The position numbers were made by a program, and so were the translations under genes. From the IMG/VR virus record IMGVR_UViG_3300008108_005458, positions 1-64,000 of that record: DNA of 64,000 nt; one strand, 5' to 3'. Position 1 is the stretch's first letter, and each line of letters begins with the position of its first letter. This stretch comes from a virus. Under the pieces are notes generated by a model, which did no database searches, was not told where the DNA came from, and worked only from the letters and a program-made list of their open reading frames with translations. Shown here one piece after another: positions 5,041 through 33,678 of the stretch.

Positions 5041-8000
5041 AGACGAACCTGAAGATGCTGCTGAACCTGATGACCCACTTTCACCACTTGAACCATTAGA
5101 ACCTGATGTTCCTGAAGAACCAGCTGTTCCTGAAGAGGCTGAGTCGCCAGAACTTCCTGATGTTCCAGTAGAGCCTGAAGCACCACTTGAACCAGATGTT
5201 CCAGTAGAACCGTTATCACCAGAAGAACCGTTTGTTCCTGAAGAACCAGAAGCGCCTGATTCACCATTTAAACCATTTATACCTGAAGAACCTGAAGATC
5301 CAGTTGACCCTGAAGACCCACTTTCACCACTTTCACCTGAAGTACCAAAACTACCACCATCACCAGATGTACCATCGCTACCTGTAGAACCAGATTCACC
5401 CGATTGACCAGATGTCCCAAATGAGCCATCATTACCCGAAGATCCATCGCTACCTGTAGAACCAGATTCACCACTTATTCCTGAAGTTCCTGAAGAACCG
5501 TTATCACCGCTTGTACCATCCGATCCTGTACTACCACTTTCACCGCTTATTCCTGATGTACCGTTAGAACCTTCGTTTCCTGATGTACCATCTGATCCAG
5601 TTGAACCTGATTCACCACTTATTCCTGAAGTTCCTGAAGAACCGTTATCACCGCTTGTACCATTTGAACCAGTTGACCCAGAGTCGCCACTTACACCCGA
5701 TGTACCATTAGAACCATCATTACCTGATGTACCATCTGAACCAGTTGAACCGCTTTCACCTGATAAACCACTTGTACCGTTAGATCCGTTATTACCTGAT
5801 GTGCCATCACTACCCGTGCTACCACTTTCACCTGATACACCAGAAGTTCCACTTGAACCATTATCACCAGAAGAACCATCTGAACCAGTTGATCCCGATT
5901 CTCCACTTATACCAGAGGTTCCGTTGGAGCCATCATCACCTGAAGAACCGTTAGTTCCTGAAGAACCTGAAGCTCCGCTTTCACCATTTAAACCATTTAT
6001 ACCTGAAGAACCTGAAGATCCAGTTGATCCCGAAGACCCACTTTCGCCAGATTGGCCAGATGTTCCAAATGAACCATCATTACCTGAAGAACCATCTGAT
6101 CCAGAGGATCCAGACTCACCTGATATACCAGATGTTCCAAATGAACCATCATTACCTGAAGATCCATCGCTACCTGTGGAACCAGATTCACCCGATTGAC
6201 CAGATGTACCGTAAGACCCATCAGCCCCACTTGATCCATCTGACCCAGTTGATCCAGACTCACCACTTATTCCCGAAGTCCCTGAAGATCCGTCATTACC
6301 TGATGTGCCATCACTACCAGTTGAACCTGATTCTCCACTTATTCCTGAAGTTCCATTTGAACCATTATCACCGCTACTACCATCACTACCAGTTGATCCA
6401 GACTCACCACTTATTCCTGAAGTCCCATTAGATCCGTCATTACCTGAAGATCCGTCTGAACCAGTTGAACCACTTTCACCTGATTGACCTGAAGTTCCGT
6501 TGGAACCATCGTTACCTGAAGACCCATCTGAACCAGTAGACCCAGATTCACCACTTATACCAGAGGTTCCAAAACTACCGTTAGCTCCTGAAGAACCGTC
6601 TGAACCAGTTGAACCTGATTCACCACTTATACCAGAGGTTCCGTTAGAACCGTTATCACCAGAAGAACCGTTAGTTCCTGAAGAACCTGAAGCTCCGCTT
6701 TCACCATTTAAACCATTTATACCTGAAGAACCTGAAGATCCAGTTGATCCTGAGGATCCCGATTCACCACTTTCACCTGAAGTACCAAAACTACCGTCAG
6801 CTCCTGAAGAACCATCACTACCCGTGCTACCACTTTCACCTGATTGACCAGATGTTCCTGAAGAACCGTCATTACCTGAAGATCCGTCTGAACCTGTGCT
6901 ACCACTTTCACCGCTTATCCCTGATGTTCCAAATGAACCATCCGCTCCTGAAGAACCATCTGACCCAGTTGATCCAGACTCACCACTTATTCCTGAAGTA
7001 CCATTAGATCCGTCATTACCAGATGTACCATCTGATCCAGTAGACCCAGATTCACCTGATTGGCCAGAGGTTCCAAATGAACCGTCAGCCCCACTTGATC
7101 CATCGGATCCTGTAGAACCAGATTCACCTGATTGGCCAGAAGTACCAAAAGATCCATCATTACCTGAAGAACCTGAAGATCCAGTTGATCCCGATTCTCC
7201 ACTTATTCCTGAAGTTCCATTAGATCCGTCATTACCTGAAGATCCGTCTGAACCTGTGCTACCACTTTCACCACTTATTCCTGAAGTCCCATTTGAGCCA
7301 TTATCGCCTGATGTACCATCTGAACCAGTTGATCCTGACTCGCCAGATTGGCCAGAAGTACCAAAAGATCCATCATTACCTGAAGACCCATCTGATCCAG
7401 TAGACCCAGATTCACCCGATTGACCAGAGGTTCCAAATGAACCATCATTACCTGAAGACCCATCTGAACCTGTGCTACCGCTTTCACCCGATTGACCAGA
7501 AGTACCATTTGATCCGTCATTACCTGAAGAACCATTGGATCCGTTTGATCCCGATTCACCACTTATTCCTGAAGTTCCATCAACACCATCAACACCATCA
7601 ACACCATTTGTACCAGAAGTACCACTTTCACCTGATGTACCAGATTCACCCGATGAACCACTTTCACCAGATTGGCCAGATGTACCGTTAGAACCATCCG
7701 CTCCTGAAGAACCATCTGAACCAGTAGACCCAGATTCACCACTTATACCAGAGGTTCCTGAAGAACCGTCATTACCACTACTACCATCACTACCAGTTGA
7801 ACCAGATTCCCCTGAAGTCCCGTTAACGCCTGTTGTACCAGAATCACCGTCCGAACCGTTAGTTCCTGAAGAACCTGAAGCTCCGCTTTCACCATTTAAA
7901 CCATTTATACCTGAAGAACCTGAAGACCCAGTTGATCCTGAAGACCCACTTTCGCCAGATTCACCTGAAGTTCCATTTGAACCATTATCACCACTACTAC

Positions 8001-9543
8001 CATCACTACCTGTACTACCACTTTCTCCACTTACCCCTGAAGTTCCTGAAGAACCATCATTACCTGATGATCCATCTGATCCTGTACTACCGCTTTCACC
8101 ACTTATACCTGAAGTTCCGTTGGAACCATCGTTACCGCTTTCACCTGATGTACCATTACTGCCTGATTCACCAGAAATACCTGAAGTACCAAAACTACCA
8201 TCATTACCACTTGACCCATCTGATCCTGTTGATCCCGATTCACCACTTATACCAGAGGTTCCGTTAGAACCACTTTCTCCACTTATTCCTGAAGTTCCTG
8301 AAGAACCATCATTACCACTAGATCCGTCAGACCCTGTTGAACCTGATTCACCAGAAATACCTGAAGTACCAAAACTACCGTCAGCTCCTGAAGAACCATC
8401 TGATCCTGTTGACCCAGATTCACCAGAAATACCAGAAGTTCCATTGGAACCATCGGCACCACTTTCACCTGAAGTACCAGTTGACCCTGATTCACCTGAA
8501 ACACCTGAAGTACCATTAGAACCATCGTTACCGCTTATCCCACTTGTGCCATCAACACCATCAACACCATCAATACCATTTGTACCAGAAGTACCAGATT
8601 GACCACTCGTACCATCATTTCCTGTGCTACCAGATTCACCTGATATACCTGATGTTCCATTTGAACCATCCGCTCCTGAAGAACCATCTGAACCAGTACT
8701 ACCAGATTCACCACTTACTCCTGAAGTCCCTGAAGATCCGTCATTACCTGATGTGCCATCACTACCAGTTGAACCTGATTCACCACTTATACCAGAGGTT
8801 CCGTTGGAACCATCTGCTCCTGAAGAACCGTCAGAGCCAGTTGAACCACTTTCTCCACTTATTCCTGAAGTTCCTGAAGAACCATCATTACCACTTTCAC
8901 CTGATGTGCCATTACTACCACTTTCTCCACTTAAACCTGAGGTTCCGTTACTACCATCATTACCCGATGTACCATCTGATCCTGTTGACCCAGATTCGCC
9001 AGACATCCCCGAAGTTCCGTTGGAGCCATCGGCACCGCTTTCACCTGAAGTACCAGTGCTACCTGATTCACCACTTATCCCTGAAGTTCCTGAAGAACCA
9101 TCATTACCACTACTACCATCACTACCATTACTACCTGATTCTCCAGAAACACCAGATGTACCATCAGAACCACTCAAACCCGAATAACCTGAAGTACCAG
9201 CTGTACCAGAAGTACCTGTTAATAAAGGTGAATATGAATATTCACCAGTAGCTGCATTAAACGACACAAAATAGTTCGGTGAACTATTTTCGGTCATTCC
9301 TGTAACAAATAACTCATTTAAAATATAAACACCCTTAAGATCTTGGGTGTTTTCCCACTGTCCAGTGGTATCGTTCCAAACTAAAATGTCCCCTTCATTG
9401 GGGCCACTAATTACAACGTCAGATAGATCATCTATTCCAAGATTTTCTATAACGTCTTTTATATTTTGGAAGTTAGCATCTAATTCCGCATAGGATAGTG
9501 CCCTTCCTAGATCGTCTCTAAGATAAATTGTTACTGTTGCCAT
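1..9543 (-). CDS. Giant collagen-like fibre protein, 3' end outside window
   Basis: From the ATG at 9543 the minus frame stays open to the window edge in every stretch I read, giving at least 3,181 codons. Residues 1-110 are non-repetitive and carry LSYAELDANFQNI, a signature found at the N-terminus of many phage fibre proteins; this part probably anchors to the virion. From about residue 113 to 1,480 the chain is Gly-X-Y (GTS, GSS, GSD, GND, GES). Beyond that, hexads such as G-S-S-A-T-S dominate, with Ala replacing every second Gly. Pro appears rare. A block containing GINGLNGE recurs with its DNA ending at 5280, 6000, 6720 and 7908. The role is inferred to be a long adhesive or tail fibre. 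Long ORFs on the plus strand here are antisense shadows. Confidence 0.85.
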   Translation of the reverse strand, partial: MATVTIYLRDDLGRALSYAELDANFQNIKDVIENLGIDDLSDVVISGPNEGDILVWNDTTGQWENTQDLKGVYILNELFVTGMTENSSPNYFVSFNAATGEYSYSPLLTGTSGTAGTSGYSGLSGSDGTSGVSGESGSNGSDGSSGNDGSSGTSGISGESGSTGTSGESGADGSNGTSGMSGESGSTGSDGTSGNDGSNGTSGLSGESGSNGTSGESGNDGSSGTSGISGESGSTGSDGSSGADGSNGTSGISGESGSTGSDGTSGNDGSSGTSGVSGESGSTGSDGSSGADGSNGTSGISGESGSTGNDGTSGQSGTSGTNGIDGVDGVDGTSGISGNDGSNGTSGVSGESGSTGTSGESGADGSNGTSGISGESGSTGSDGSSGADGSFGTSGISGESGSTGSDGSSGNDGSSGTSGISGESGSNGTSGISGESGSTGSDGSSGNDGSFGTSGISGESGSNGTSGESGNDGSNGTSGISGESGSTGSDGSSGNDGSSGTSGVSGESGSTGSDGSSGDNGSNGTSGESGESGSSGSTGSSGSSGINGLNGESGASGSSGTNGSDGDSGTTGVNGTSGESGSTGSDGSSGNDGSSGTSGISGESGSTGSDGSSGADGSNGTSGQSGESGSSGESGTSGESGTSGTNGVDGVDGVDGTSGISGESGSNGSNGSSGNDGSNGTSGQSGESGSTGSDGSSGNDGSFGTSGQSGESGSTGSDGSSGNDGSFGTSGQSGESGSTGSDGTSGDNGSNGTSGISGESGSTGSDGSSGNDGSNGTSGISGESGSTGSSGSSGNDGSFGTSGQSGESGSTGSDGSSGADGSFGTSGQSGESGSTGSDGTSGNDGSNGTSGISGESGSTGSDGSSGADGSFGTSGISGESGSTGSDGSSGNDGSSGTSGQSGESGSTGSDGSSGADGSFGTSGESGESGSSGSTGSSGSSGINGLNGESGASGSSGTNGSSGDNGSNGTSGISGESGSTGSDGSSGANGSFGTSGISGESGSTGSDGSSGNDGSNGTSGQSGESGSTGSDGSSGNDGSNGTSGISGESGSTGSDGSSGDNGSNGTSGISGESGSTGSDGTSGNDGSSGTSGISGESGSTGSDGSSGADGSYGTSGQSGESGSTGSDGSSGNDGSFGTSGISGESGSSGSDGSSGNDGSFGTSGQSGESGSSGSTGSSGSSGINGLNGESGASGSSGTNGSSGDDGSNGTSGISGESGSTGSDGSSGDNGSSGTSGVSGESGSTGSDGTSGNNGSNGTSGLSGESGSTGSDGTSGNDGSNGTSGVSGDSGSTGSNGTSGDNGSSGTSGISGESGSTGSDGTSGNEGSNGTSGISGESGSTGSDGTSGDNGSSGTSGISGESGSTGSDGSSGNDGSFGTSGQSGESGSTGSDGTSGDGGSFGTSGESGESGSSGSTGSSGSSGINGLNGESGASGSSGTNGSSGDNGSTGTSGSSGASGSTGTSGSSGDSASSGTAGSSGTSGSNGSSGESGSSGSAASSGSSATSGTIGTSGLAANSGSSATSGSSATSGSSGTNGASSNSGLSETSGSSGSSGTNGTTGVAGQSRLSFSSGSSGSSGTSGTGGNSGASASSGSSATSGTVGTSGLSASSGSAGSSATSGTSGSTGSAGSSGASATSGTSASSGSSATSGTNGTSGLSSNSGSSATSGSSATSGTSGSSGLSASSGSSATSGSSATSGTAGSSGVSSTSGTSASSGSSATSGTNGTSGLSSNSGSSATSGTSATSGTTGTSGLAGSSKTSGSSGSSGTSGSSGVDGADGISAISATSGSSGSTGTNGTGGLSSNSGSSGTSGSSATSGTVGSSGLSSSSGSSATSGTSGSTGSNGSSGASASSGTSASSGSSATSGTNGTSGLAANSGSSGSAGSSGTSATSGSSGTSGSSGASASSGTSASSGSSATSGTNGTSGLASNSGSSASSGSSATSGTAGSSGLSASSGSSASSGTSGTSGSAGSSGASASSGTSASSGSSATSGTNGTSGLSSNSGSSATSGSSATSGTSGSSGLSASSGSSATSGTSGSAGSAGSSGLSASSGTSASSGSSATSGTNGTSGLAANSGSSATSGSSATSGTSGSSGSSASSGTAGSSGNSNSSGSSGSSGSSATSGTAGTSGLSSNSGSSATSGSSATSGTAGSSGLSASSGSSATSGTSGSSGSVGSSGASASSGTSASSGSSATSGTNGTSGLSALSGSSATSGSSATSGTAGSSGLSASSGSSATSGTSGSSGTAGASGASASSGTSASSGSSATSGTNGTSGLSANSGSSATSGSSATSGSAGSSGLSASSGSSATSGTAGSTGTSGSSGASASSATSGTAGSSATSGTNGTSGLSANSGSSASSGSSATSGTAGSSGLSASSGSSATSGTSGSTGSNGSSGASASSGTSASSGSSATSGTNGTSGLSSNSGSSGTSASSGTSGTTGTVGSSANSGSSGSAGSSATSGTSGSTGSAGSSGASASSGTSASSGSSATSGTVGTSGLSQLSGSSGSAGTSATSGTSGSSGSSGSAGTDGASALSKSSGTSGSSGSSGSTGTNGTSGLAANSGSSATSGSSATSGTTGTSGSSALSSSAGSSGSSATSGTAGSSGLSALSASSGTSASSGSTGSNGTSGLAANSGSSATSGSSATSGTAGTSGLSQLSGSSGSAGTSATSGTSGSSGSSGSAGTDGASALSKSSGTSGSSGSTGTAGTNGASANSGSSATSGSSATSGTAGTSGLSQLSGSAGSAGSSATSGTSGSSGSSGSAGTSGQSANSGSSATSGSSATSGTVGTSGLSRLSGSSATAGTSGTSGTDGQSATSDTSGTSGSSGSTGTSGTDGQSALSKSSGTSGSSGSSGSAGTNGASANSGSSATSGSSATSGTAGTSGLSQLSGSSGSAGTSATSGTSGSSGSSGSAGTDGASALSKSSGTSGSSGSSGSTGTNGTSGNAGNSGLSATSGSSATSGTTGTSGTNGASANSGSSGTSASSGTTGTTGTSGSSNNSGSAGTSGSSGSSGTSGTVGASANSGSSGSSGSSATSGTAGTNGLSQLSGSSGSAGTSATSGTSGSSGSSGSAGTDGASALSRSSGTSGSSGSTGTNGTNGASANSGSSATSGSSATSGTAGTSGLSQLSGSSGSAGSSASSGTTGTSGTAGNSGLSQLSGSSASSGSSGTNGTSGLSRSSGSS
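5040..9200 (-). repeat. Gly-X-Y coding repeat with 720-bp super-repeat
   Basis: The DNA repeats in 9-bp units encoding Gly-X-Y triplets. A longer conserved block (GINGLNGESGASGSSGTNG region) ends at 5280, 6000 and 6720, exactly 720 bp apart, and again at 7908, 1,188 bp further. All spacings are multiples of 9. This suggests growth by unequal recombination that preserves frame. Confidence 0.75.
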
Positions 9544-20390: not shown

Positions 20391-21227
20391 ATGTTATTAA
20401 AAGTAGGTTCAAAAGGAGATGATGTAAAAAAACTCCAAGCGAAACTGGGTACGACAGCTGATGGCGCTTTCGGTCCAGGTACAGAAAAATTAGTTAAAGA
20501 ATGGCAAGCTGCCAATGGTTTAACAGCTGATGGTATTGTTGGTGATGCGACTTGGGCAAAAATGGGTTTAAATGAGGGCGCTGCCCCAGCTAAACCAGCT
20601 GCCGCTCCAGTAGCTATCCCACCATCTAGCTTCAAATTAGAAGCATTAAAAGGTCATATCCCTGATGCGGTTATTGCTCAGATCCCTGACACAGCAGCTA
20701 AATTCAACATTACAAACGTATTAAGATTAGCACATTTCTTGGCACAGTGTGGTCATGAATCTGGTGGTTTTAAAGCTGTTAGCGAAAACTTAAATTACAG
20801 CGCTGATGGTCTTAAAAAAATATTCCCTAAATATTTTCCTGGTAATTTAAATGAGTCTTATTCTCGTCAGCCAGAAAAAATTGCTAACCGTGTATATTCA
20901 TCTCGTATGGGTAATGGTGATGAAGCTTCTGGTGAAGGTTTTAAATTCAGAGGCCGTGGATACATTCAATTAACTGGTAAATCAAACTACACAGCGTTTG
21001 ACAAAATGGTTGAGGAGAATATAATTGAAACGCCAGATCTTGTTGCAACAAAATATCCTTTAATGTCAGCGGCATTTTTCTTTGATTCAAATAAACTTTG
21101 GTCTATATGTGACAAGGGTGCTGATGATGCAACGGTAACAGCTGTTACAAAAAGAGTTAATGGTGGTACAATCGGTTTAGCTGATAGAATCAAACATTTT
21201 AAAGAATATTACAATTTACTAAAATAA
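20391..21227 (+). CDS. Endolysin: peptidoglycan-binding plus GH19 domain
   Basis: 278 aa. Residues 1-65 form a PG_binding_1 domain (VGSKGDDVKKLQAKLG, DGIVGDATWAKMG). An Ala/Pro linker (about 66-82) leads to a GH19 lysozyme/chitinase-like domain with the catalytic Glu in CGHESGGF (about 125), then GRGYIQLTGKSNY and NGGTIGLADR. It should cleave the glycan of peptidoglycan during lysis. No signal peptide, so it needs a holin; a holin-like gene lies at 27695. Confidence 0.93.
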   Translation: MLLKVGSKGDDVKKLQAKLGTTADGAFGPGTEKLVKEWQAANGLTADGIVGDATWAKMGLNEGAAPAKPAAAPVAIPPSSFKLEALKGHIPDAVIAQIPDTAAKFNITNVLRLAHFLAQCGHESGGFKAVSENLNYSADGLKKIFPKYFPGNLNESYSRQPEKIANRVYSSRMGNGDEASGEGFKFRGRGYIQLTGKSNYTAFDKMVEENIIETPDLVATKYPLMSAAFFFDSNKLWSICDKGADDATVTAVTKRVNGGTIGLADRIKHFKEYYNLLK

Positions 21228-21841: not shown

Positions 21842-22042
21842 ATGAGTTTTAACAAAAGATATGTTGACAGTCGTAAAATTTTAATATATAAAGATAGGTT
21901 AGAAGACCTCTTTACTAATAAAATTGACGCATTTATATTTAATGATAATTTCTCAAAAGAGATATTTGATTTATATGAGGAAAAAAAATTTGATTTAATT
22001 AGGGATCGAATACTTGAATATGAGACTAAATCGCTGATCTAA
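21842..22042 (+). CDS. Hypothetical protein, 66 aa
   Basis: MSFNKRYVDSRKILIYKD then helical, charged sequence (EEKKFDLIRDRILEYETKS). No recognised domain. Its last 48 nt overlap the convergent barrel gene, so antisense effects on that transcript are possible. Confidence 0.5.
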   Translation: MSFNKRYVDSRKILIYKDRLEDLFTNKIDAFIFNDNFSKEIFDLYEEKKFDLIRDRILEYETKSLI

Positions 22043-22732
22043 CGGCTTTACATTTTTATTTAATTCTGAACTAATTGTCGATAAATAACCCTCATAAACA
22101 AAACCAATAGACGTTGTTTTTTTAATCGCCTTTGTTATCGATAGATTGTAATTACCGACAGTGTTTCTTACCCATATTAAATCATTAGTCGATACAACAG
22201 CTGGTTGTAATAATAAATTATGCTCAACGGTGTAATCAGTCACTTTATATTTAAACGTATGTCTATAAGAAACTCTTTTACTACCAAACCAGAGTTTTGA
22301 TATTTCTGATCTGTCATACACATATGCAAGTGAAACACTGCCACCTAATTTATTAGTCTTAAAAGATTTTTTAAGACCCATACCACCAGAAACACTTAAA
22401 TCTAAATTTTTAACTAAAGAATGCTCAACAGTTGAAAATAGTATCACACTGTAATTGTTTTTAACTTCTTTCCAGGAAAATATATTTAACCTAGCATCCT
22501 CAGACTGTTTAATAAATTCGTTATTCTTTTGCCCATAAAATAAAAAATAATATGGGTTTAAACTAACCCCAATGTCCTTTTTTTTATTATTAAGTTCATA
22601 ACTCATTTTAGACGTTATCTGAACATTTTTATTGTTTCCAGTAAGTAACACCCCACCTAGGTCGAAACTCTTTATTTGGGCCTCTAAATGGCCAAAAAAA
22701 CATACTAATAATACTGTTATAAAATACTTCAT
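21995..22732 (-). CDS. Outer-membrane beta-barrel protein (DUF481-like)
   Basis: 245 aa from the ATG at 22732 (MKYFITVLLVCFFGHLEAQ), which gives a clean signal peptide; the in-frame codons upstream would hide it. The mature part shows alternating strands (SKMSYELNNKKKDIGVSLNP, FSTVEHSLVKNLDLSVSGG, VSYRHTFKYKV, HNLLLQPAVV), and FGSKRVSYRHTF and a C-terminal IFKYSI strand resemble DUF481 barrels. Last gene of the envelope cassette. It likely inserts in the host outer membrane. Confidence 0.7.
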   Translation of the reverse strand: MKYFITVLLVCFFGHLEAQIKSFDLGGVLLTGNNKNVQITSKMSYELNNKKKDIGVSLNPYYFLFYGQKNNEFIKQSEDARLNIFSWKEVKNNYSVILFSTVEHSLVKNLDLSVSGGMGLKKSFKTNKLGGSVSLAYVYDRSEISKLWFGSKRVSYRHTFKYKVTDYTVEHNLLLQPAVVSTNDLIWVRNTVGNYNLSITKAIKKTTSIGFVYEGYLSTISSELNKNVKPLDQRFSLIFKYSIPN

Positions 22733-22733
22733 A

Positions 22734-23192
22734 TTATAGTTTACTAACTGCATCAATTATACCTTTTTTCATAGCAATACCTATTGACGATTTGCTAAAT
22801 GGCACTTTACCTTCTTTTAGTTCAATAAAAGCGTAGCTAGCTGTTGTAGCTGACTCGCCAATACCATCAACAACCGTTTCACCAAAATGAAGTTTCAATA
22901 ATATTTGAGTTGTTTCTGTAGCGGCACCAACACCAGCGATTCTGAAAGTTGTTGACGGTGTACCAACTCTAGTAATCTCAACCATAACTGGTATAGCGTT
23001 TTGTTCACATAATGAATACTTTTCGGATAACACCTCTTCGGTTATTTGTTTAACCCCGAATAAGATATTCCTATCTTTAAACTCTTTTATTTTCATTGTG
23101 CTGTAAACTGAATCTACCTTAACACAAGTTTGAGAAAAAGCTGATACTGGTACTATTAGTACAAATATGAGCGCTAAAATAAACTGTTTCAT
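22734..23192 (-). CDS. Secreted protein with CsgG-like C-terminal motif
   Basis: 152 aa with signal peptide (MKQFILALIFVLIVPVSAFS, cut near QTC). The C-terminal part, KVPFSKSSIGIAMKKGIIDA, parallels IKFNQSTIGTSTKKALETA in the CsgG-like lipoprotein at 26974, suggesting a related alpha/beta fold. Probably periplasmic. It is separated from the downstream barrel gene by one base and from the lectin gene by 4, so it is part of the same operon. Confidence 0.65.
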   Translation of the reverse strand: MKQFILALIFVLIVPVSAFSQTCVKVDSVYSTMKIKEFKDRNILFGVKQITEEVLSEKYSLCEQNAIPVMVEITRVGTPSTTFRIAGVGAATETTQILLKLHFGETVVDGIGESATTASYAFIELKEGKVPFSKSSIGIAMKKGIIDAVSKL

Positions 23193-23196
23193 AATT

Positions 23197-25482
23197 TTAT
23201 TGTTTATAACCTGTTTTTATTATATAAAAATTTGAAGTCCCGTTATGGGTTAAATTATCAACCATAAGTGACTGAGCCCCAGTATAGGTTGTTTTTAAAT
23301 TATTATTAGATCCGTTAATCACTGACCACTGTGCTGATGTAAATAACCTATAATTAGGGGTTAAATTTAACCAGCTTGGTAATATATTATTATTTCTTTG
23401 AAACACCAGAACAACATCTGTTATTGTTAACATATCGTTTCCATTTACATCCATTCTGTAATAATCTCTCGCATTAAAAGATTGGGTTAATAACTTTTGG
23501 TTAAAAAACTGAGCATCAGTAATACTGGGTAGTAAAACGGTGATACTCTCACCAGCAATCAACCTAAAATCATTTAAATTAACGCTTTCATTTGTTGTTA
23601 TTGTGTATTTACCATTAGCATCTGTTGTATACGTCCCATATAATGTGTAGTTTGTTTGAGTTTTAATCTTATAGTATAGTTTTACAGATATACCAGATAC
23701 CCCAATATTTTCAGTGTTATACACATATCCCGAATAAGCAAATGGGTTTACGATTATAATACCATTGTTTGAGTATGTATAACCACAAGTCCCACTTTGT
23801 AACTGGGCCCTGAATAAAGTTGCGTCAGTCTGATTACTGTATGTATAGGTTGCCGCAGTATTTGCAATATCCGTCCATGTAACTCCGTTATTAACCGATC
23901 TTTGCCATTTTACTATTGTACCAGTATAGCCACTTAAAGTTAGTGTACCAGAATTAGTTGTGCTGGTATGTACGGCTGATGATACGGAACCGCCTGTTGG
24001 TGGGGTACCTGTTATAACACTGATGGTTTTACTAGTTGAATAAACCGCACTACCACAATTAGGTGTCTGAACCTCTACTCTGTAGTAATATGTTCCAGCG
24101 GATGATATTGTTTCCGTTAAAGCTGTAGTTGTATTGGTTATGTTAGTCCAATTAATATTATCCGTAGATTTTTGCCATTTATTAATGTTACCCTGTTGAC
24201 CAGATAGCGTTAACTCAACAACACCACCAGCGCATATGGTATTGTTTGCAGCGAATACGGTACCAGAATTAGTTGGTTTTACCGATAAAAACACACTAGA
24301 AGAGGATAGCGATGAACAAGTAACTGGGCTACTTGAATTAACGATTGCCCTGTAATAAGTTGTCTTTGTTATATTTGATATTGTTATACTGGTTGATGTG
24401 CTGGATATAGTTGTACCAGCGGTAAAGAAGTTATCAAAGGATGATTCCCACCTAACAACACTACCAGTCATACCACTCAAAGTTAACACCGTACTATTTG
24501 AACCAGAACAAACGTTTATATCTCCGCCACTAATAGTACCAGTGGAACCGTTGCCCACATTTATTTGTCTTGTGAATATTGTTACACTTGATGTTAGATC
24601 ACCAGGCATATCACCATATTCACAAATATAACCAGGTAAATTTGTATTTGGTAAGTCATTCCATGAACCACTATTTGCTGAATAAAATTGTGCGTAATGT
24701 TCCCCACCAGCGTTGTTTGGTTCCCCACCAGCCCATTTTGCGTATTGACCTGTAACCGCTGTACTACCGTTAGAAAATTGCGTTCCCTTCTCGGGGCCAG
24801 TAACCCAGTGCCATTTTTGTTCCACTGCTGCTTGTGATGCAAAAGCTGTTGTACCTTTTGCCGCATTTACCTGACCAACCTCATCTGAACCACCAAACCA
24901 ACCATCTGAAGACATTAATTTCCAGATAAAATTATTCTCAGCTTCAGATAGCATTGTGGCTAGATAACCAACCCTACCAAAATAAGAGCGATTTTCAGCT
25001 GAACTTTTAGCACTTGTCCAAGATCCAGATGACGCTACATATTCATAAAAATGTTCTGTTAACGGGTTGTAAAAAACCGTACCAGCGACAAATGTTATTC
25101 TTCTTAGGTTTGCGTAACAAGTTGTTGTTGTTGATTTAAACGTCACAGTTCTTAAAAGAGTTTGCCAGTTAGCGGCTGTTGTCGTACCGTTAAAACTTAA
25201 TATACCTGTCGTTGAGTTCCAACTTGCTGTTACACCAGTCGGTAAAGTACCTGTGTAAGTTAATACATCCCCAGATGTATATGTTTGCGATATTTGTACC
25301 CTGAAACCAGTTATGTTCCCATTAGCGGTTATTGTTAAATTAGCGTCAACCACAGTGGCTGTGTTATATGAAACGGATAGGCTCGAAGCGGTACCGCCAA
25401 CAGTTATGCTAGTTGCTTGAGCGTTAACAATGCTCGTACAACAAATAAACATAACCAAGAATAAAAAAAACCTTTTCATCAT
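23197..25482 (-). CDS. Secreted C-type-lectin protein with dockerin-like C-terminus
   Basis: 761 aa; start is either ATG of the ATGATG at 25482/25479. Signal peptide (FFLFLVMFICCTSIVNAQ). Domains: a beta domain (about 20-135); a C-type lectin domain (about 136-285) with WHWVTGPEKGTQF, YAKWAGGEPNNAGGEHYAQF and WNDLPN, the Glu-Pro-Asn type ligand set; three Ig/PKD-like repeats (about 300-580) each with WQ/WE-S and YYRAIV or YYRVEV; a Cna-B-like segment (about 585-650); and a dockerin-like module MDVNGNDMLTITDVVLVFQR followed by LFTSAQWSVING. The last module resembles one in the 28437 protein. Likely surface adhesin. Confidence 0.82.
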   Translation of the reverse strand: MMKRFFLFLVMFICCTSIVNAQATSITVGGTASSLSVSYNTATVVDANLTITANGNITGFRVQISQTYTSGDVLTYTGTLPTGVTASWNSTTGILSFNGTTTAANWQTLLRTVTFKSTTTTCYANLRRITFVAGTVFYNPLTEHFYEYVASSGSWTSAKSSAENRSYFGRVGYLATMLSEAENNFIWKLMSSDGWFGGSDEVGQVNAAKGTTAFASQAAVEQKWHWVTGPEKGTQFSNGSTAVTGQYAKWAGGEPNNAGGEHYAQFYSANSGSWNDLPNTNLPGYICEYGDMPGDLTSSVTIFTRQINVGNGSTGTISGGDINVCSGSNSTVLTLSGMTGSVVRWESSFDNFFTAGTTISSTSTSITISNITKTTYYRAIVNSSSPVTCSSLSSSSVFLSVKPTNSGTVFAANNTICAGGVVELTLSGQQGNINKWQKSTDNINWTNITNTTTALTETISSAGTYYYRVEVQTPNCGSAVYSTSKTISVITGTPPTGGSVSSAVHTSTTNSGTLTLSGYTGTIVKWQRSVNNGVTWTDIANTAATYTYSNQTDATLFRAQLQSGTCGYTYSNNGIIIVNPFAYSGYVYNTENIGVSGISVKLYYKIKTQTNYTLYGTYTTDANGKYTITTNESVNLNDFRLIAGESITVLLPSITDAQFFNQKLLTQSFNARDYYRMDVNGNDMLTITDVVLVFQRNNNILPSWLNLTPNYRLFTSAQWSVINGSNNNLKTTYTGAQSLMVDNLTHNGTSNFYIIKTGYKQ

Positions 25483-26966
25483 AACGCTAATCTTGTACCC
25501 ATCATTACTGTATAATTTAATACGTTATCCCCGAGAGAATAAGCACCACCAAAATTAAAATTTAATTTAAATGTTTTTGTCACACCTAAGTTCATACCAA
25601 CAATCGGTAAAACAACAAATGGTGATTTTAAAACAGCATCATCGTAATATCTAACAAATGGTGCGTAAACAAATAGAGCCATTGTTTTAATATCAAGGCG
25701 CTTTCCTACTTTAAAATCCCTATTACCACCAACAATTGCAGCCGAACCATAATAAGGTTCTTTATAAATTTGGCCACCCGAAGCTGTAACCATGTAAACA
25801 GCTTTAAACTTTTTAATACTCCTCATCTGGCCAAAAGCGATGGTGTTATACATAGACCCACTACCAGCAAAACCAATTGTAATTGTATTAGAAAGTAATG
25901 TAATGGCTTTACGATTTATCCAGGCGTAATAACCAGTGATGTTACCGCCTTGTATTGAAGATGTATAATCGAGCATAATACCGTGTGATCTTAGACCATC
26001 ATATCTTACAGATGAATAACCAGCATTGACCCTTGAACCTTTACTAACCTCACCCTCATTAAATTGAAAACCTACTAAGTCACTACTCATAAGTATTGAT
26101 GGTCTACCACCGTTTTTACTTGTGGCTGACCCCTTACCGTTACCGCTACTACTACCACTTTTTACAGCGTTTGTTGTACCACCTACAGCATCTGATTTTT
26201 TTTCTTCGGTGGTTTGTGTTTGATTGCCTGTTGAACCATTACCACCAGATCCACCAGACCCTGTAGAGCTTGTGGTGGTACCACCTGAACCACCAGTAGA
26301 ACCACCACCAGTGTTGGTGTTACCCGTTCCACCTGTTTCACCAGACCCTGTAGTGTTTCCACCACTTGTGCTTGTACCTGTGGTAGTTTCAGAACTACCA
26401 CCACCATTATTATTTCCAGTAGTAGTACCAGATGAACTAGATCCACTTGAATTATTTCCATTAGATTGTGTTTGTCCTTGTGACCCCCCACCAGATTGGT
26501 TTCCCCCACTAGAAGAGTTTTTATTATCCTTATTATCTTTACCACCATCACCGTTTCCACCAACACTAGTAACCGATCCAGCTGCTGCCATTATGTTACC
26601 CGTACCACTAGATGCCATATCACTAATAGCCGATAAAGCACCAAATATACTAACCACATTTAAAGCTGTGCTCTGGGTTTGCGATACAGTAACAGCGGTA
26701 CCTATACTCCCGCATGGTGAAGCGTTTTGGAATTGATTGAAAACACCAGCCGCCCAGTTGTCAAAGACACCGTTATTAAAATCATTAGCTGTAAAGGTAC
26801 CCACTTGACCGTAGTACGTTACAGCTATTTGATTTTGCCCGTAAGGAATTGATATATTATATACCTTGCCATTGCAAGGGTCGGTGTAAGAATAATTAAA
26901 TGATTGAGCACTCGCTATGTTGCATAGCAAAGACACAAAAATAACTATAATCAATTTTATTCTCAC
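25479..26966 (-). CDS. Secreted protein: Gly/Ser/Thr-rich linker plus beta-barrel
   Basis: 495 aa. Signal peptide (MRIKLIIVIFVSLLCNIASA). Residues 20-150 are a compact N-domain with two Cys; residues about 150-285 are very low complexity (Gly, Ser, Thr, Asn), so flexible. Residues 290-495 alternate like an outer-membrane barrel (GIMLDYTSSIQGGNITGYYA, LNFNFGGAYSLGD, final TVMMGTRLAL). Stop overlaps the lectin gene start. It may be the outer-membrane anchor for secreted partners of this cassette. Confidence 0.7.
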   Translation of the reverse strand: MRIKLIIVIFVSLLCNIASAQSFNYSYTDPCNGKVYNISIPYGQNQIAVTYYGQVGTFTANDFNNGVFDNWAAGVFNQFQNASPCGSIGTAVTVSQTQSTALNVVSIFGALSAISDMASSGTGNIMAAAGSVTSVGGNGDGGKDNKDNKNSSSGGNQSGGGSQGQTQSNGNNSSGSSSSGTTTGNNNGGGSSETTTGTSTSGGNTTGSGETGGTGNTNTGGGSTGGSGGTTTSSTGSGGSGGNGSTGNQTQTTEEKKSDAVGGTTNAVKSGSSSGNGKGSATSKNGGRPSILMSSDLVGFQFNEGEVSKGSRVNAGYSSVRYDGLRSHGIMLDYTSSIQGGNITGYYAWINRKAITLLSNTITIGFAGSGSMYNTIAFGQMRSIKKFKAVYMVTASGGQIYKEPYYGSAAIVGGNRDFKVGKRLDIKTMALFVYAPFVRYYDDAVLKSPFVVLPIVGMNLGVTKTFKLNFNFGGAYSLGDNVLNYTVMMGTRLAL

Positions 26967-26973
26967 GCACGTT

Positions 26974-27693
26974 TTAGTTCTTGAATAAACCTTTTTTAAT
27001 TAATTTTACAACAACTCTAGAAGATGCAGTTTCTAAAGCCTTTTTAGTTGATGTTCCTATTGTTGATTGATTAAATTTGATTTCATCCACATCATCTAGA
27101 ATTGTTGACATTTTAACTGTTTTAGCTTCACCCAAACCAGAACCAACTATAACTTCACCAGTTTCGGCATCAACAAATTTAACTTGCATACCCAATCTGG
27201 TTGTTTGTGTTGCGGTAGCCTTACCATTAACTTTAACAACCTCATCTTCAGACACACTAAAGTCGTAAACTTCAATGTAAACAAAATACTTCGCTAATTT
27301 AACTTTACCCCTACCATCAACTTTGTTTTCAGTAAACCCCTTATCAGATGCTTTAAATTGGTTAACCATTCTTTCTTTAATTTCTAATTTATCTTCAGTA
27401 AAGACAAATCTGTTAGTCATTTCCAGAAATTCGATTACAATATTGGTTACACCTAAACCAACTCTTTTATCTTTTAATTCAGGGTACATCTCATAAAGTT
27501 CTTCCGTGAACCCTATTTTTAATAACTGGATGGGGTATTTGATCGTGTCAGTATAATTTGAGACAACATCAATAGATTGAGTTTGCTCAAAACTAGCCTT
27601 ATATTCTTCGGTTTTAACACTACCAATAGTCTGTGCTTGGGTTTTACAAGCACAGAATATTATTGGCAATATAATGAATAATAATTTTTTCAT
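26974..27693 (-). CDS. CsgG-like lipoprotein
   Basis: 239 aa from the ATG at 27693, which overlaps the stop region of the upstream gene and gives MKKLLFIILPIIFCACKTQA, a signal peptide with Cys residues at a lipobox-like site. The C-terminal half (KYFVYIEVYDFSV, TRLGMQVKFVDAETGEVI, DDVDEIKFNQSTIGTSTKKA) follows the CsgG pattern of an alpha/beta domain that assembles outer-membrane secretion rings. CsgG exports curli subunits; no curli repeat protein is recognised here, so the exported substrate is unknown. Confidence 0.72.
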   Translation of the reverse strand: MKKLLFIILPIIFCACKTQAQTIGSVKTEEYKASFEQTQSIDVVSNYTDTIKYPIQLLKIGFTEELYEMYPELKDKRVGLGVTNIVIEFLEMTNRFVFTEDKLEIKERMVNQFKASDKGFTENKVDGRGKVKLAKYFVYIEVYDFSVSEDEVVKVNGKATATQTTRLGMQVKFVDAETGEVIVGSGLGEAKTVKMSTILDDVDEIKFNQSTIGTSTKKALETASSRVVVKLIKKGLFKN

Positions 27694-27694
27694 A

Positions 27695-28093
27695 TTAAAC
27701 TTCTGTTGTGTTTGATAAAGAAACACCATCTTCCTCGTCAACTTTTTGGATTAACATTTTGTCTCTATCTTCTGAGTTGAACCAGTAGTCAACAACCTTA
27801 TTTAAGTTACCAACGAAAGCACCTAATAAGATTAATAACATTTCTTTCCAATCTTCACCAATTGATACACCGAAGAAAACAGCTGAATTAATACCAGCTA
27901 CGATGAAAAAGAATAAGAATAATACAATTCCAGTTATTCTCCATCTATTAGCTTGCATTTGTTGCAACATGTAATAGAATCTGTTTTTATCCTCAACTTG
28001 TACAGGCGCAGGTGCGCTAGTAAAACTTTTTAATGTTTCTTTAATTTTCATATTAGTTTTCTTTTCTTTTTTTATTTTTATCTCTTTTTTCAT
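27695..28093 (-). CDS. Holin-like membrane protein
   Basis: 132 aa from the ATG at 28093, which overlaps the upstream stop (TAATG). Basic N-terminus, then two hydrophobic segments: ITGIVLFLFFFIVAGINSAV (about 53-72) and MLLILLGAFVGNLNKVVDYW (about 83-102), ending in a charged tail. GAFVGNLNKVVDYWFNSEDR resembles small phage holins. An ATG at 28051 is an alternative start. It could form the lesion that releases the endolysin of 20391, though it is far from that gene and sits among envelope genes. Confidence 0.6.
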   Translation of the reverse strand: MKKEIKIKKEKKTNMKIKETLKSFTSAPAPVQVEDKNRFYYMLQQMQANRWRITGIVLFLFFFIVAGINSAVFFGVSIGEDWKEMLLILLGAFVGNLNKVVDYWFNSEDRDKMLIQKVDEEDGVSLSNTTEV

Positions 28094-28425
28094 TACCAAG
28101 GACTATCTTCAGTTTCTGATTTTTTAGCTGGTTTTTCTTCTTTAACGGGTGCGGCTTTTTCAACAACAGTTGTTTTTTCCTTAATAATAGTATTGGTACC
28201 GCCACCAGCATTATTTTTAGAAGAGTTATCAACACTTATATTGATTGCGGGTTGTGCAGCTGGAGCCGCTTGTTCCGTTTTTGTTTCTTCCTCACCACCA
28301 CCAAATAATGTGGTTGTGAAATAGGTCCCACCAGCCATTATAGCTGTTGTGATAACCCCGATGATCGTTTTCTTTAAACCTGACCATGTTCCGTCTGATT
28401 CAGGTACATTTGTTTCCTCTGACAT
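28093..28425 (-). CDS. Single-pass membrane protein with charged linker
   Basis: 110 aa. N-terminal 17 polar residues, a transmembrane segment (TIIGVITTAIMAGGTYFTTT, about 20-39), then a Gly hinge and a charged, Pro/Glu/Lys-rich tail (EKAAPVKEEKPAKKSETEDS). Topology suits a lysis accessory or periplasm-spanning partner of the holin-like protein encoded next; their genes overlap by one base. Confidence 0.6.
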   Translation of the reverse strand: MSEETNVPESDGTWSGLKKTIIGVITTAIMAGGTYFTTTLFGGGEEETKTEQAAPAAQPAINISVDNSSKNNAGGGTNTIIKEKTTVVEKAAPVKEEKPAKKSETEDSPW

Positions 28426-28436
28426 TGTTTTAAATT

Positions 28437-30335
28437 TTAGTTTAGTTTTATTGTTTTATTTGTTTTAATATCATTTTGTGTTCTTAAAATACCGTAGTAT
28501 GTACCAGGTATAACATTAGTTAAATCAACTGGATAAAGATATTTACCTTTATACATTTTACCACTAAAAACTGTGTGTACTAATTTGCCGCTCGCATCGT
28601 AAAACCCAACGTTTATTTCACCATCTTCTGGTACACTAAAACTAACAAGAGCTAAACCTTCTGTTGGATTAGGTGACACAATTATTTCACAATCTTTTGT
28701 TGTTACAGCACCGCCATTAATTCTGAATATTTTAACAACACCATTTGTTGGTGTAATTCTCAAATCAGTTGCGTTTGCATCACCAGCATATTTTCTTATA
28801 ACATATAAAGGGCTATTATTCCAAGTACTTTGTGGTGATAAGGCTGTAAATTGTAACGTTAAAACAATATCCCCATCATTAGCCAAATATTCGTTTCTAC
28901 TCATATCAGCGCCAGCCCACTCAACGATACCATTATTTGGATTTAAAAATGACATCCAATTCATAAATTTTTCCTCTGTTTTAATACCTTTAAACTCTAA
29001 TAAAGAGTTATCATAGGCTAAAGCTAATTGAATTGAACCAACTTGGTCGCCTTGTGTTAAAACTTTCATTGGTACGTTTAATAAACTACCTTCAGTAATT
29101 TCGATTTTAGGTAAATTAATTTCGATTGTAGCGGTTGGAAAATCGTACTCAACAGTTTCATCGATAATGTATTGAGGTGTCTTACTAGGGTTTAAGATCT
29201 CAATAGGAATTGTACGAGCCATATGGAAACCAGTACCGTTTGCATCACCACCACCTAATACATAGAATGTTACTGAGTCTGGCTGACCAGCGATAATATC
29301 AAATGTTAAATTAGTTACACCAGCAATAGTTGATGTGTAGTTAGTTGAAGACCCGTTAATGGTATTATATTGTGAAACTGTAAAGAATCTAACATCCTGA
29401 ACAGAGTTTGGCCACACTGAGAATCTACCCGCTAAACGACCATAGATAGCCGATACGTCAGCGATTGTAATACCGTAAGAACCGTTCACGTCAGAAGCGT
29501 AGAAATCAAATCCAGCTGGGGTTTCTTCACCTATAACAAATTTATTAACCTTTTGTGCATCGGCAACAGATACTGTGTTACCCACAGCCATTGTATCACC
29601 TTTAACGTATAAGTGAGCATCCCAATAAGTTGTATCTAAGATTTCATCGAAGGCAAAATAACCAGTAATGTCAGTTGTATCAAGTTTAACCTGAGTCCAG
29701 GCACCCGTTGATGTTTTAGGTCTTTTTTCTAAAGCAATTGTGATATTTTTAGAGCCAGAACCAGTTACGTTTGTAAATCTACCATGGTATTTTAATCTAT
29801 TCATTTTGAACTCACCACCATAACTGTGTAAAGATAAGGTTGTATCAATACCAGCTATTGTTGACGCATATGAGGGAAACGTTAAAGTACCAGTCACCTT
29901 TAAACTATCAATACTAGTTAAAGCTTGGAAAGCGGTTGCAGCTTGGTGAAAGAATTTGATCTGAAATGCCGCACCGTTAGCGTATGTAAAAGAGTTGTTC
30001 GTACCTGTATAAGCTAACGTAACGGTGATGTTACCATTTACCGAATCCGCAACATATTGCATATACTGATCAGAAGTACTGTACAATAAAGATACGATTG
30101 GTTTTGCACCACCAAAAGCCACTTTGTCGTAGAACACACGGAACTGTAAACCAGCGATTTTAGTCGTTGTTGTGTTGTCATAGTAAAGGTTAGCTAAAGT
30201 GAAACCTTGTGACTGCGGACCAACATTGTAAGAAGAGTCAACGATAACCCAATTACCACTCGATGGTGCAGTTGTTTGTGCATAGCCCGTAATGGCTAAT
30301 AACGCCAGCACTAGCGTTAAAAATAAATTTTTCAT
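28437..30335 (-). CDS. Secreted cohesin/dockerin protein with T9SS sorting domain
   Basis: 632 aa from the ATG at 30335 (MKNLFLTLVLALLAITGYAQ, signal peptide). An N-terminal cohesin-like beta-domain (about 20-150), then a dockerin-like module SDVNGSYGITIADVSAIYGR (about 280) followed by FFTVSQYNTING, then a second cohesin-like domain (about 415-530, VGSIQLALAYDNSLLEFKG), and at the C-terminus SPNPTEGLALVSF, FYDASGKLVHTV and PGTYYGIL, the type A C-terminal sorting domain of the Bacteroidota type IX secretion system. It should be exported by host machinery and attached to the cell surface. First gene of the envelope cassette. Confidence 0.85.
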   Translation of the reverse strand: MKNLFLTLVLALLAITGYAQTTAPSSGNWVIVDSSYNVGPQSQGFTLANLYYDNTTTTKIAGLQFRVFYDKVAFGGAKPIVSLLYSTSDQYMQYVADSVNGNITVTLAYTGTNNSFTYANGAAFQIKFFHQAATAFQALTSIDSLKVTGTLTFPSYASTIAGIDTTLSLHSYGGEFKMNRLKYHGRFTNVTGSGSKNITIALEKRPKTSTGAWTQVKLDTTDITGYFAFDEILDTTYWDAHLYVKGDTMAVGNTVSVADAQKVNKFVIGEETPAGFDFYASDVNGSYGITIADVSAIYGRLAGRFSVWPNSVQDVRFFTVSQYNTINGSSTNYTSTIAGVTNLTFDIIAGQPDSVTFYVLGGGDANGTGFHMARTIPIEILNPSKTPQYIIDETVEYDFPTATIEINLPKIEITEGSLLNVPMKVLTQGDQVGSIQLALAYDNSLLEFKGIKTEEKFMNWMSFLNPNNGIVEWAGADMSRNEYLANDGDIVLTLQFTALSPQSTWNNSPLYVIRKYAGDANATDLRITPTNGVVKIFRINGGAVTTKDCEIIVSPNPTEGLALVSFSVPEDGEINVGFYDASGKLVHTVFSGKMYKGKYLYPVDLTNVIPGTYYGILRTQNDIKTNKTIKLN

Positions 30336-30355
30336 GTTGTTTTGTTTTGATATTA

Positions 30356-30362
30356 ATAAATA
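30356..30362 (-). promoter_or_regulatory. Late-type TATTTAT motif of envelope cassette
   Basis: Sense CTATTTATTAATA, 20 nt upstream of the ATG at 30335; the only promoter candidate seen for the eight-gene minus cassette. Confidence 0.5.
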
Positions 30363-32058: not shown

Positions 32059-32133
32059 GGCTCTATGGTGTAGCGGCAACATAGGAGACTCTAAATCTCA
32101 CAGTCACGGGTTCGAACCCCGTTAGGGCCACCA
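32059..32133 (+). tRNA. Amber suppressor tRNA (anticodon CUA)
   Basis: 75 nt including an encoded CCA. Acceptor GGCTCTA/TAGGGCC with discriminator A, U8, A14, D arm GTG/CAT, T arm ACGGG-TTCGAAC-CCCGT. Anticodon arm GGAGA-CTCTAAA-TCTCA has a G-A mismatch at 27-43 but four good pairs; the 7-nt loop has U33 and A37, giving anticodon CUA, which reads UAG. The charged amino acid cannot be read from sequence. Two genes upstream in the same operon carry early in-frame TAG codons. TAG is also used as an ordinary stop at 16553, 48416 and 51225, so suppression is probably partial. Confidence 0.8.
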
Positions 32134-33122: not shown

Positions 33123-33204
33123 GCCAGTATCGCATAGCGGCAATTGCAGCGGATTGTAAACCCGCTCTCATTCGAGTTCGGTGGTTCGAGTCCACCTGCT
33201 GGCA
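33123..33204 (+). tRNA. tRNA-Tyr (GUA)
   Basis: Type II tRNA: acceptor GCCAGTA/TGCTGGC, anticodon loop TTGTAAA, long variable arm, T arm GGTGG/CCACC, discriminator A. Confidence 0.9.
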
Positions 33205-33216
33205 CTATTTATTAAT

Positions 33217-33678
33217 ATGAGGAAACTAATATTAATGATCGTAATGGTTTTATCCACAACGATTTGTAAATCACAAATTGTGATAGATAAAGCTGGGGAT
33301 GGTTGGGATCTAAGAGCTGATAGCGCTTTGGTAATTATTAAGCAAACAGATACCACCGCATATAAACTCGTATTACGAGTTTGTAATAAAATAACTTTTT
33401 GGTCTGGGAACTACTCAACAAACGAGGGTTCTAAAGATACAAAAGGAAGTATAATAATATCATCGACAGATGCTAGGGCTAAATCCTTAAACAATCTAGC
33501 GGCTGTTATTGTGCACGAATCTTTACACCTTTATCTTAGATATAGGGGTGTTCAAGAATCACCAAGAGAAGAAATACTCTGTTACTCATATGAGTATGAC
33601 TTCTTAAGGAAAATACCAAATGTTGAACAATATCTGTTAGACCATTGTCTAAGACAGATAAACCTTCGACAAAATTAA
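33217..33678 (+). CDS. Secreted HExxH protein inside tRNA array
   Basis: 153 aa from the ATG at 33217, which places a signal peptide at the N-terminus (MRKLILMIVMVLSTTICKSQ); the frame upstream belongs to tRNA-Tyr. The central AAVIVHESLHLYLRYRG carries HESLH, the zinc-metallopeptidase HExxH pattern, and a downstream Glu-rich helix (SPREEILCYSYEYDF) could supply a third ligand, as in M-type peptidases. Its stop is 1 nt before tRNA-Ala. A peptidase role in the periplasm is inferred from motif and export signal only. Confidence 0.72.
   Translation: MRKLILMIVMVLSTTICKSQIVIDKAGDGWDLRADSALVIIKQTDTTAYKLVLRVCNKITFWSGNYSTNEGSKDTKGSIIISSTDARAKSLNNLAAVIVHESLHLYLRYRGVQESPREEILCYSYEYDFLRKIPNVEQYLLDHCLRQINLRQN

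Follow-up and report, generated by a model that had tools for sequence, protein, structure and literature searches.

Introduction

Phage-encoded cargo of the type IX secretion system (T9SS) was reported in 2020 for Cryophage and is termed there a unique occurrence (PMC7468147). Curli (type VIII secretion system, T8SS) operons of pelagiphages and of phage Melnitz have been transferred between distant lineages, and their hypothesized roles are defence against superinfection, sibling capture, or control of lysis (PMC7029224, PMC9599517, PMC9004378). Here, we analyse a gene cassette in a 64,000-nucleotide stretch of viral DNA (hereafter the window), comprising positions 1 to 64,000 of the 67.7 kb virus record IMGVR_UViG_3300008108_005458. 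Our tentative reading of this cassette, to which we give slightly less than an even chance, is that it is a late phage operon that would use the host T9SS to display a cohesin-dockerin scaffold whose adhesin tips can be exchanged. An earlier note on this DNA had picked out two of the genes, correctly, but the unit comprises at least six, with predicted parts in all envelope layers, and the CsgG-like, small secreted, beta-barrel, and inner-membrane genes went unmentioned there. The note had also called the use of T9SS cargo signals by a phage notable; after the Cryophage report, such use is not new.

Results

A conserved run of predicted envelope and surface genes

On the minus strand of the window, from 30374 to 21995, eight genes form an uninterrupted run. 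To place this run in a wider set, 207 viral loci with the CsgG-like gene were grouped into 68 clusters (95% protein identity), of which 49 are complete around the cassette; counts out of 49 below refer to these non-redundant complete phage loci. The eight genes are as follows.

28437..30335, minus strand: coh, scaffoldin-like protein, 632 amino acids (aa); in 49/49 loci
28093..28425, minus strand: tmA, 110 aa; in 49/49 loci (alignment A4)
27695..28051, minus strand: hol, 118 aa; optional, in 27/49 loci (alignment A6)
26974..27693, minus strand: CsgG-like secreted protein; in 49/49 loci (alignment A1)
25479..26966, minus strand: GSbar; in 49/49 loci (alignment A3)
23197..25482, minus strand: lec, dockerin-lectin; in 49/49 loci, with a variable ectodomain
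22734..23192, minus strand: sm, secreted protein of 152 aa; in 49/49 loci
21995..22732, minus strand: bar, secreted, probable beta-barrel protein of about 245 aa; present as an accessory in 7/49 loci

The six genes coh, tmA, csgG (the CsgG-like gene), GSbar, lec, and sm are thus present in every complete locus, and this conservation implies that the cassette has a function. Their commonest order is coh-tmA-(hol)-csgG-GSbar-lec-sm; in immuto-like phages lec comes first instead, and in others it follows sm.

coh encodes a scaffoldin-like protein with a T9SS tail

The true start of coh is the ATG at 30335, and its product is organized, from the N terminus, as follows.

Signal peptide MKNLFLTLVLALLAITGYAQ, N-terminal, Sec type, as read by eye
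Cohesin-like domain, N-terminal, after the signal peptide
Transthyretin/CNA-like domain, residues about 189-240
Dockerin, residues about 244-308, window 29412-29606
Conserved beta module, residues about 312-395
Cohesin, residues 405-536, window 28728-29123
T9SS type A tail, residues 553-630, window 28446-28679

Residues 405-536 match the cohesin family PF00963 over its cut-off (E 1.8e-9), and the T9SS tail passes TIGR04183 (24.2 against a cut-off of 23 bits), while falling slightly below the cut-off of PF18962 in the window (22.9 against 27). In a PDB profile search, a coh profile built from 25 relatives matched (i) the dockerin structure 4uyp at positions 244-308 (E 5e-4), (ii) the cohesin structures 6kg8 and 6kgc at 404-541, and (iii) the T9SS-tail structures 5jvk and 8glj at 545-635, as well as giving a weak transthyretin-like match N-terminal of the dockerin. 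Moreover, cohesin PF00963 was over its cut-off in 20/20 related records and the T9SS tail PF18962 in 8/8, which rules out a chance match. Seven of those eight are phage-only records, each with a single T9SS tail that lies every time in coh. A second, weaker cohesin match is found at the N terminus of many coh relatives, and PF00404 (Dockerin_1) matches 17/19 related records, four of them over the cut-off, with no score in the window's own record. A tblastn search with one phage T9SS tail against INPHARED gave no match, and the tail alone is therefore too divergent for tblastn.

lec carries an exchangeable ectodomain on a constant dockerin

The lec product comprises a signal peptide, a C-type lectin domain (match at 24619-24837), Ig-like repeats, and a C-terminal dockerin module (23200-23685). 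Its Lectin_C match lies over the cut-off after in-frame summing (26.3 against 22.6 bits), and Lectin_C was over the cut-off in 12/19 related records, every time in lec. The C-terminal module of lec aligns residue by residue with the dockerin region in the middle of coh, and both contain the EF-hand-like loop DVNG..xxIT.xD.

Among 62 lec sequences, the dockerin tail shows few gaps, and the middle is missing from about 80%. This combination of a variable middle and a constant dockerin tail is as expected of a plug-in system, and the lectin part is exchanged between phages while the dockerin is retained. The ectodomains include CTLD, CTLD + Ig_7, GEVED, and CTLD + Laminin_G_3. No dockerin-bearing cellulase was found, and the four lec ectodomains that were scanned gave either adhesin-type matches or none at all.

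Lectin, GEVED, and Laminin_G ectodomains that vary on a constant dockerin would also suit a clumping adhesin, in which the displayed lectin binds other cells or particles so that the burst occurs near new hosts ("sibling capture"), an idea published for pelagiphage curli (PMC7029224; PMC9599517). Late expression, however, would leave a short time for gathering cells, and we regard this reading as unlikely.

The two products singled out in the earlier note are borne out by these matches: that of the gene at 28437 as a signal-peptide protein with cohesins, a dockerin, and a T9SS type A tail, and that of the gene at 23197 as a C-type lectin with a homologous dockerin. Its proposal of a lectin complex assembled through host T9SS holds in part, in that a scaffold with a T9SS cargo signal and a dockerin-bearing lectin share one operon, but the lectin has no such signal itself; likewise, the lectin domain is present, yet it is merely one among several interchangeable ectodomains.

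The cassette belongs to phages and probably crosses between them

The record also carries other phage-type genes, encoding a Lon-like ATP-dependent protease, a deoxynucleoside monophosphate kinase, a helicase, and an endolysin, together with 16 tRNA genes. Single scans of IMG/VR retrieved 205 contigs that encode relatives of the CsgG-like protein, 113 with relatives of its immuto version, and 247 with relatives of sm (overlapping sets), and records with the cassette reach 434 kb. A tblastn search of 50,697 phage records found one cultured relative, the Flavobacterium phage immuto (four records), whose genes gp013-gp019 constitute the cassette; the host assignment, Flavobacterium, is that of this phage.

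The resemblance of the T9SS tail to host tails would fit host DNA or an assembly chimaera, and the earlier note had named a chimaera with host DNA as a finding that would refute its claim. Two contigs (L003 and L005) are 99.9% identical across window positions 16977-37696, and five further contigs, at about 70-96% identity, cover the cassette and both flanks. Among GTDB species genomes one contig was matched, and the cassette does not occur in 394/395 Bacteroidota genomes. The single matching genome contributes a 254 kb contig with a phage terminase aboard, which identifies it as a phage binned with a bacterium. The CsgG-like protein is found in 0/394 Bacteroidota genomes lacking that contig; in the other 197 genomes searched for full-length coh there was none, only host T9SS tails being matched, and no member of the coh family was found in plasmids. 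Since a cultured phage and 207 viral loci carry the operon and its flanks are contiguous, host DNA or a chimaera is ruled out for practical purposes, its probability being vanishingly small, and the phage origin stands. The 254 kb contig, from a Bacteroidetes metagenome-assembled genome, also encodes a second T9SS-tailed protein of 284 aa outside the cassette (L299:983-1837).

Phages sharing the operon may have TerL proteins as little as about 30% identical. Compared with immuto, locus L186 has a TerL of 33% identity, with 74% for the CsgG-like protein, 52% for sm, and 45% for GSbar, whereas L059 has a TerL of 63%, with 61%, 34%, and 28%, respectively. Cassette kinship thus conflicts with TerL kinship, suggesting that distantly related phages have exchanged the cassette.

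The CsgG-like protein, sm, and the remaining predicted envelope genes

The CsgG-like protein is the best conserved core part, with a mean column identity of 69% (A1, 35 rows), and sm is a shortened paralogue of it (hhalign of A1 against A2: probability 97%, E 6.6e-11). Compared with Bacteroidota CsgG proteins, its profile aligns in register with an hhalign score of 35.5, against 14.8 ± 2.1 (maximum 21.2) in 60 column shuffles; a broader CsgG set scores lower (27.8 against a shuffle maximum of 24.1). On these profile scores, the protein probably belongs to the CsgG superfamily, and pore formation is at most a candidate function. No lipobox is evident by eye in the family, whose consensus has a standard signal peptide with a terminal AQ. 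Pfam scans of the cassette proteins gave no match to CsgF or curlin repeats, and PDB profile searches with sm and with GSbar gave no credible match. Loci L095 and L100 hold Bacteroidota CsgG proteins of about 460 aa with a beta-barrel-looking C-terminal extension.

The tmA product has a short cytoplasmic N terminus, one predicted transmembrane segment, and a P/A/K/E/N-rich periplasmic tail with an invariant terminal Trp, a topology that we infer from sequence. The hol product, with two hydrophobic segments and an invariant C-terminal motif (GAFVGN..NKV.D.WF..EDRDK), appears holin-like by topology only, and its comparison with holin and other families gave no match over the cut-off. GSbar combines a signal peptide, a conserved N-terminal domain (DPC...W...PC), a long Gly/Ser/Asn-rich linker, and a C-terminal region of about 200 aa that may be an outer-membrane beta-barrel. 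Judging from signal peptides, transmembrane segments, and composition, the cassette would have parts in every envelope layer: tmA and hol in the inner membrane, the CsgG-like protein and sm in the periplasm, GSbar in the outer membrane, and coh and lec at the surface.

Some loci carry additional genes within or next to the cassette. In some immuto-like phages, a protein of 318-327 aa, Ala/Glu-rich and with repeated "SAEAHAG"-like units, is encoded between tmA and the CsgG-like gene (L149:9018-10001, L154:8956-9912), and in a 373 kb phage record a collagen-like protein with "GATGAIGATGA" repeats is encoded immediately 3' of sm (L064:14425-15099).

Neighbouring genes and a possible role in lysis

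Two plus-strand genes flank the run in the window.

20391..21227, plus strand: endolysin (peptidoglycan-binding + GH19-like), a neighbour and not a core part
33181..33678, plus strand: secreted HExxH protein (HESLH), a possible zinc peptidase

The second of these lies among tRNA genes and overlaps the end of a predicted tRNA-Tyr. In 33/49 loci an endolysin gene lies no more than 10 kb from the cassette, immediately upstream of coh in some of them; relatives of the HExxH protein are near the cassette in 32/49; and a secreted Endonuclease_NS protein (NucA/EndoG type) occurs in 11/49, in or beside the cassette at L046:12565-13176, L002:9935-10513, and immuto gp012.

This neighbourhood, the holin-like hol in 27/49 loci, and the late-type motif described below would fit a lysis or egress module, in which, as infection ends, the outer membrane would be broken through or controlled by tmA, hol, the CsgG-like protein, and GSbar, and the surface proteins would help to dismantle the envelope; for phage Melnitz, the CsgGF pore has been suggested to act in lysis (PMC9004378). 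In immuto, though, a holin and endolysin pair (gp190/gp191) lies separately, about 28 kb from the cassette, hol is optional, and neither a T9SS-anchored scaffold nor an interchangeable lectin has an obvious task in lysis. We therefore consider this module improbable as the function of the cassette.

A promoter-like motif and the timing of expression

In immuto, 23 of the 30 sense-strand TATTTATA sites lie at most 45 nucleotides before a listed gene, against about one expected by chance, as calculated from the genome share lying in such stretches. The genes so preceded include terL, portal, sheath, tube, hub, tape measure, a spike, and lec, which is the first cassette gene in this phage. Across loci, the first cassette gene has the motif ahead of it in 24/66 (34/66 with variants), and the 230 starts of internal csgG, GSbar, sm, and hol genes have it in no case; some matches occur before a second coh gene (8/22) and before tmA (10/66, variants only). 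In the window, a variant is found 18 nucleotides upstream of coh.

30354..30362, minus strand: promoter-like motif TATTTATTA, a variant of TATTTATA, about 18 nucleotides before coh

Because the motif is common to structural genes and the first cassette gene, late expression of the operon is likely.

A late-type motif shared with structural genes would also be expected if lec and coh were virion parts, serving on the particle in receptor binding or decoration, and some phage tip proteins have a C-type lectin fold. The signal peptides of coh, lec, GSbar, sm, and the CsgG-like protein, the T9SS tail on coh, and the location of the immuto cassette apart from the head and tail modules argue against this, and we hold a virion role to be very unlikely.

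Three other candidate signals were set aside. A host-type promoter before coh (TAnnTTTG) was found in 9 loci, against 9.0 in shuffles. The T4-type motif TATAAATA showed no enrichment before listed structural genes, leaving TATTTATA as the informative motif. In-frame TAG is absent from the cassette and from the endolysin alike, so its absence is uninformative on timing.

Elsewhere in the window, two plus-strand open reading frames of 2607 and 475 aa (3-7826 and 7833-9260) stay open only when TAG is decoded as sense, with 62 and 5 such codons in frame, respectively, and the record has a tRNA with anticodon CTA (32059-32133, plus strand); TAG is probably recoded in that part of the phage and not beyond it. 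Between 56000 and 64000 (minus strand), host-type motifs of the form TTG-N(17-23)-TAnnTTTG precede small minus-strand genes in series, their -7 motifs often paired 28 bp apart (TACATTTG/TAAATTTG), and this is probably an early region.

Discussion

A proposed mechanism and its standing

From the operon, its domains, its conservation, and its ectodomain swapping, which are read from sequence, we propose a model of timing, export, docking, helper complex, and purpose. The operon would be transcribed late, with the virion genes, and would give the infected Bacteroidota cell an altered surface. The coh product would cross the inner membrane by Sec through its signal peptide and pass by its C-terminal tail to the host T9SS, to be fixed outside, where its cohesins and its own dockerin could join it into chains or networks. 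Into this scaffold the lec dockerin would plug a variable lectin or adhesin part, lec reaching the surface either bound to coh or through a helper complex; tmA, the CsgG-like protein, sm, and GSbar may form such an envelope-spanning complex that exports or anchors the structure. As to function, our first choice is that host receptors would be covered, which would keep progeny and rival phages from adsorbing again to the dying cell, and our second is adhesion to or clumping with neighbouring cells; the late timing fits covering of receptors on a dying cell and its debris slightly better. A more specific picture, which we regard as doubtful, is a machine spread horizontally in large Bacteroidota phages, with a T9SS-grown, self-linking cohesin-dockerin fibre on the infected cell, an exchangeable adhesin cap, and a CsgG-like ring as its dedicated base for assembly.

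Several observations weigh against our reading of a surface-displayed scaffold. Pfam CsgG (PF03783) matched 0/20 records, even at E values up to 10, and the HH-suite probability of the CsgG profile comparison is 40%, a weak relation. Since lec has no T9SS tail, its route to the outside is an assumption. A mirror-tree comparison of lec dockerins with coh cohesins gave a weak signal (partial r 0.23) that was not above that of the T9SS tail. The late-type motif also precedes some genes of no known structural class, and the endolysin neighbours are compatible with a lysis role as well.

If the scaffold reading is true, large Bacteroidota phages share a common, transferable surface-remodelling kit, parallel to the pelagiphage curli operons, which would explain a phage investment of about 8 kb in host-surface proteins and would tie phage fitness to the T9SS; it would also make available cohesin-dockerin pairs of natural phage origin whose binding domains can be swapped. 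Direct testing is possible, because a cultured phage with the operon exists. In a separate region, immuto also has many clustered genes for glycosyltransferases and sugar modification over a long stretch (L295:9172-19988; immuto 49-60 kb), a second possible route to an altered host surface.

Comparison with known systems

The open-access papers searched contained no description of the six-gene cassette. The closest relative, vB_FspM_immuto (NC_055915), has the same operon, with a CsgG-like protein 68% identical and with lec, tmA, GSbar, and sm; it differs in that coh is split into gp014 and gp015, hol is missing, and lec comes first, and its genes are annotated one by one only (lectin, cohesin domain, hypothetical). 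Cryophage likewise encodes proteins with T9SS type A tails, which differ between its variants, but there the cargo consists of an endoglucanase, a GH39 protein, and a PA14 protein, and the available part of the source mentions no cohesin and describes no multi-gene envelope operon (PMC7468147).

The pelagiphage and Melnitz operons resemble the cassette as conserved, mobile phage operons that pair an outer-membrane channel with a surface fibre, and their CsgG and perhaps the CsgG-like protein are distant relatives. Their hosts, however, are Proteobacteria, and they use CsgF and curlin repeats where the cassette has cohesin-dockerin modules, a lectin, and a T9SS tail. With cellulosomes, the cassette has in common cohesin and dockerin modules and a scaffold-and-plug logic, from which it departs in that no cellulase was found, a single chain bears both cohesin and dockerin, the anchor is of the T9SS type, and the carrier is a phage. 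Since T9SS cargo and curli operons have both been published for phages already, the cohesin-dockerin cassette is best placed as a variant of these.

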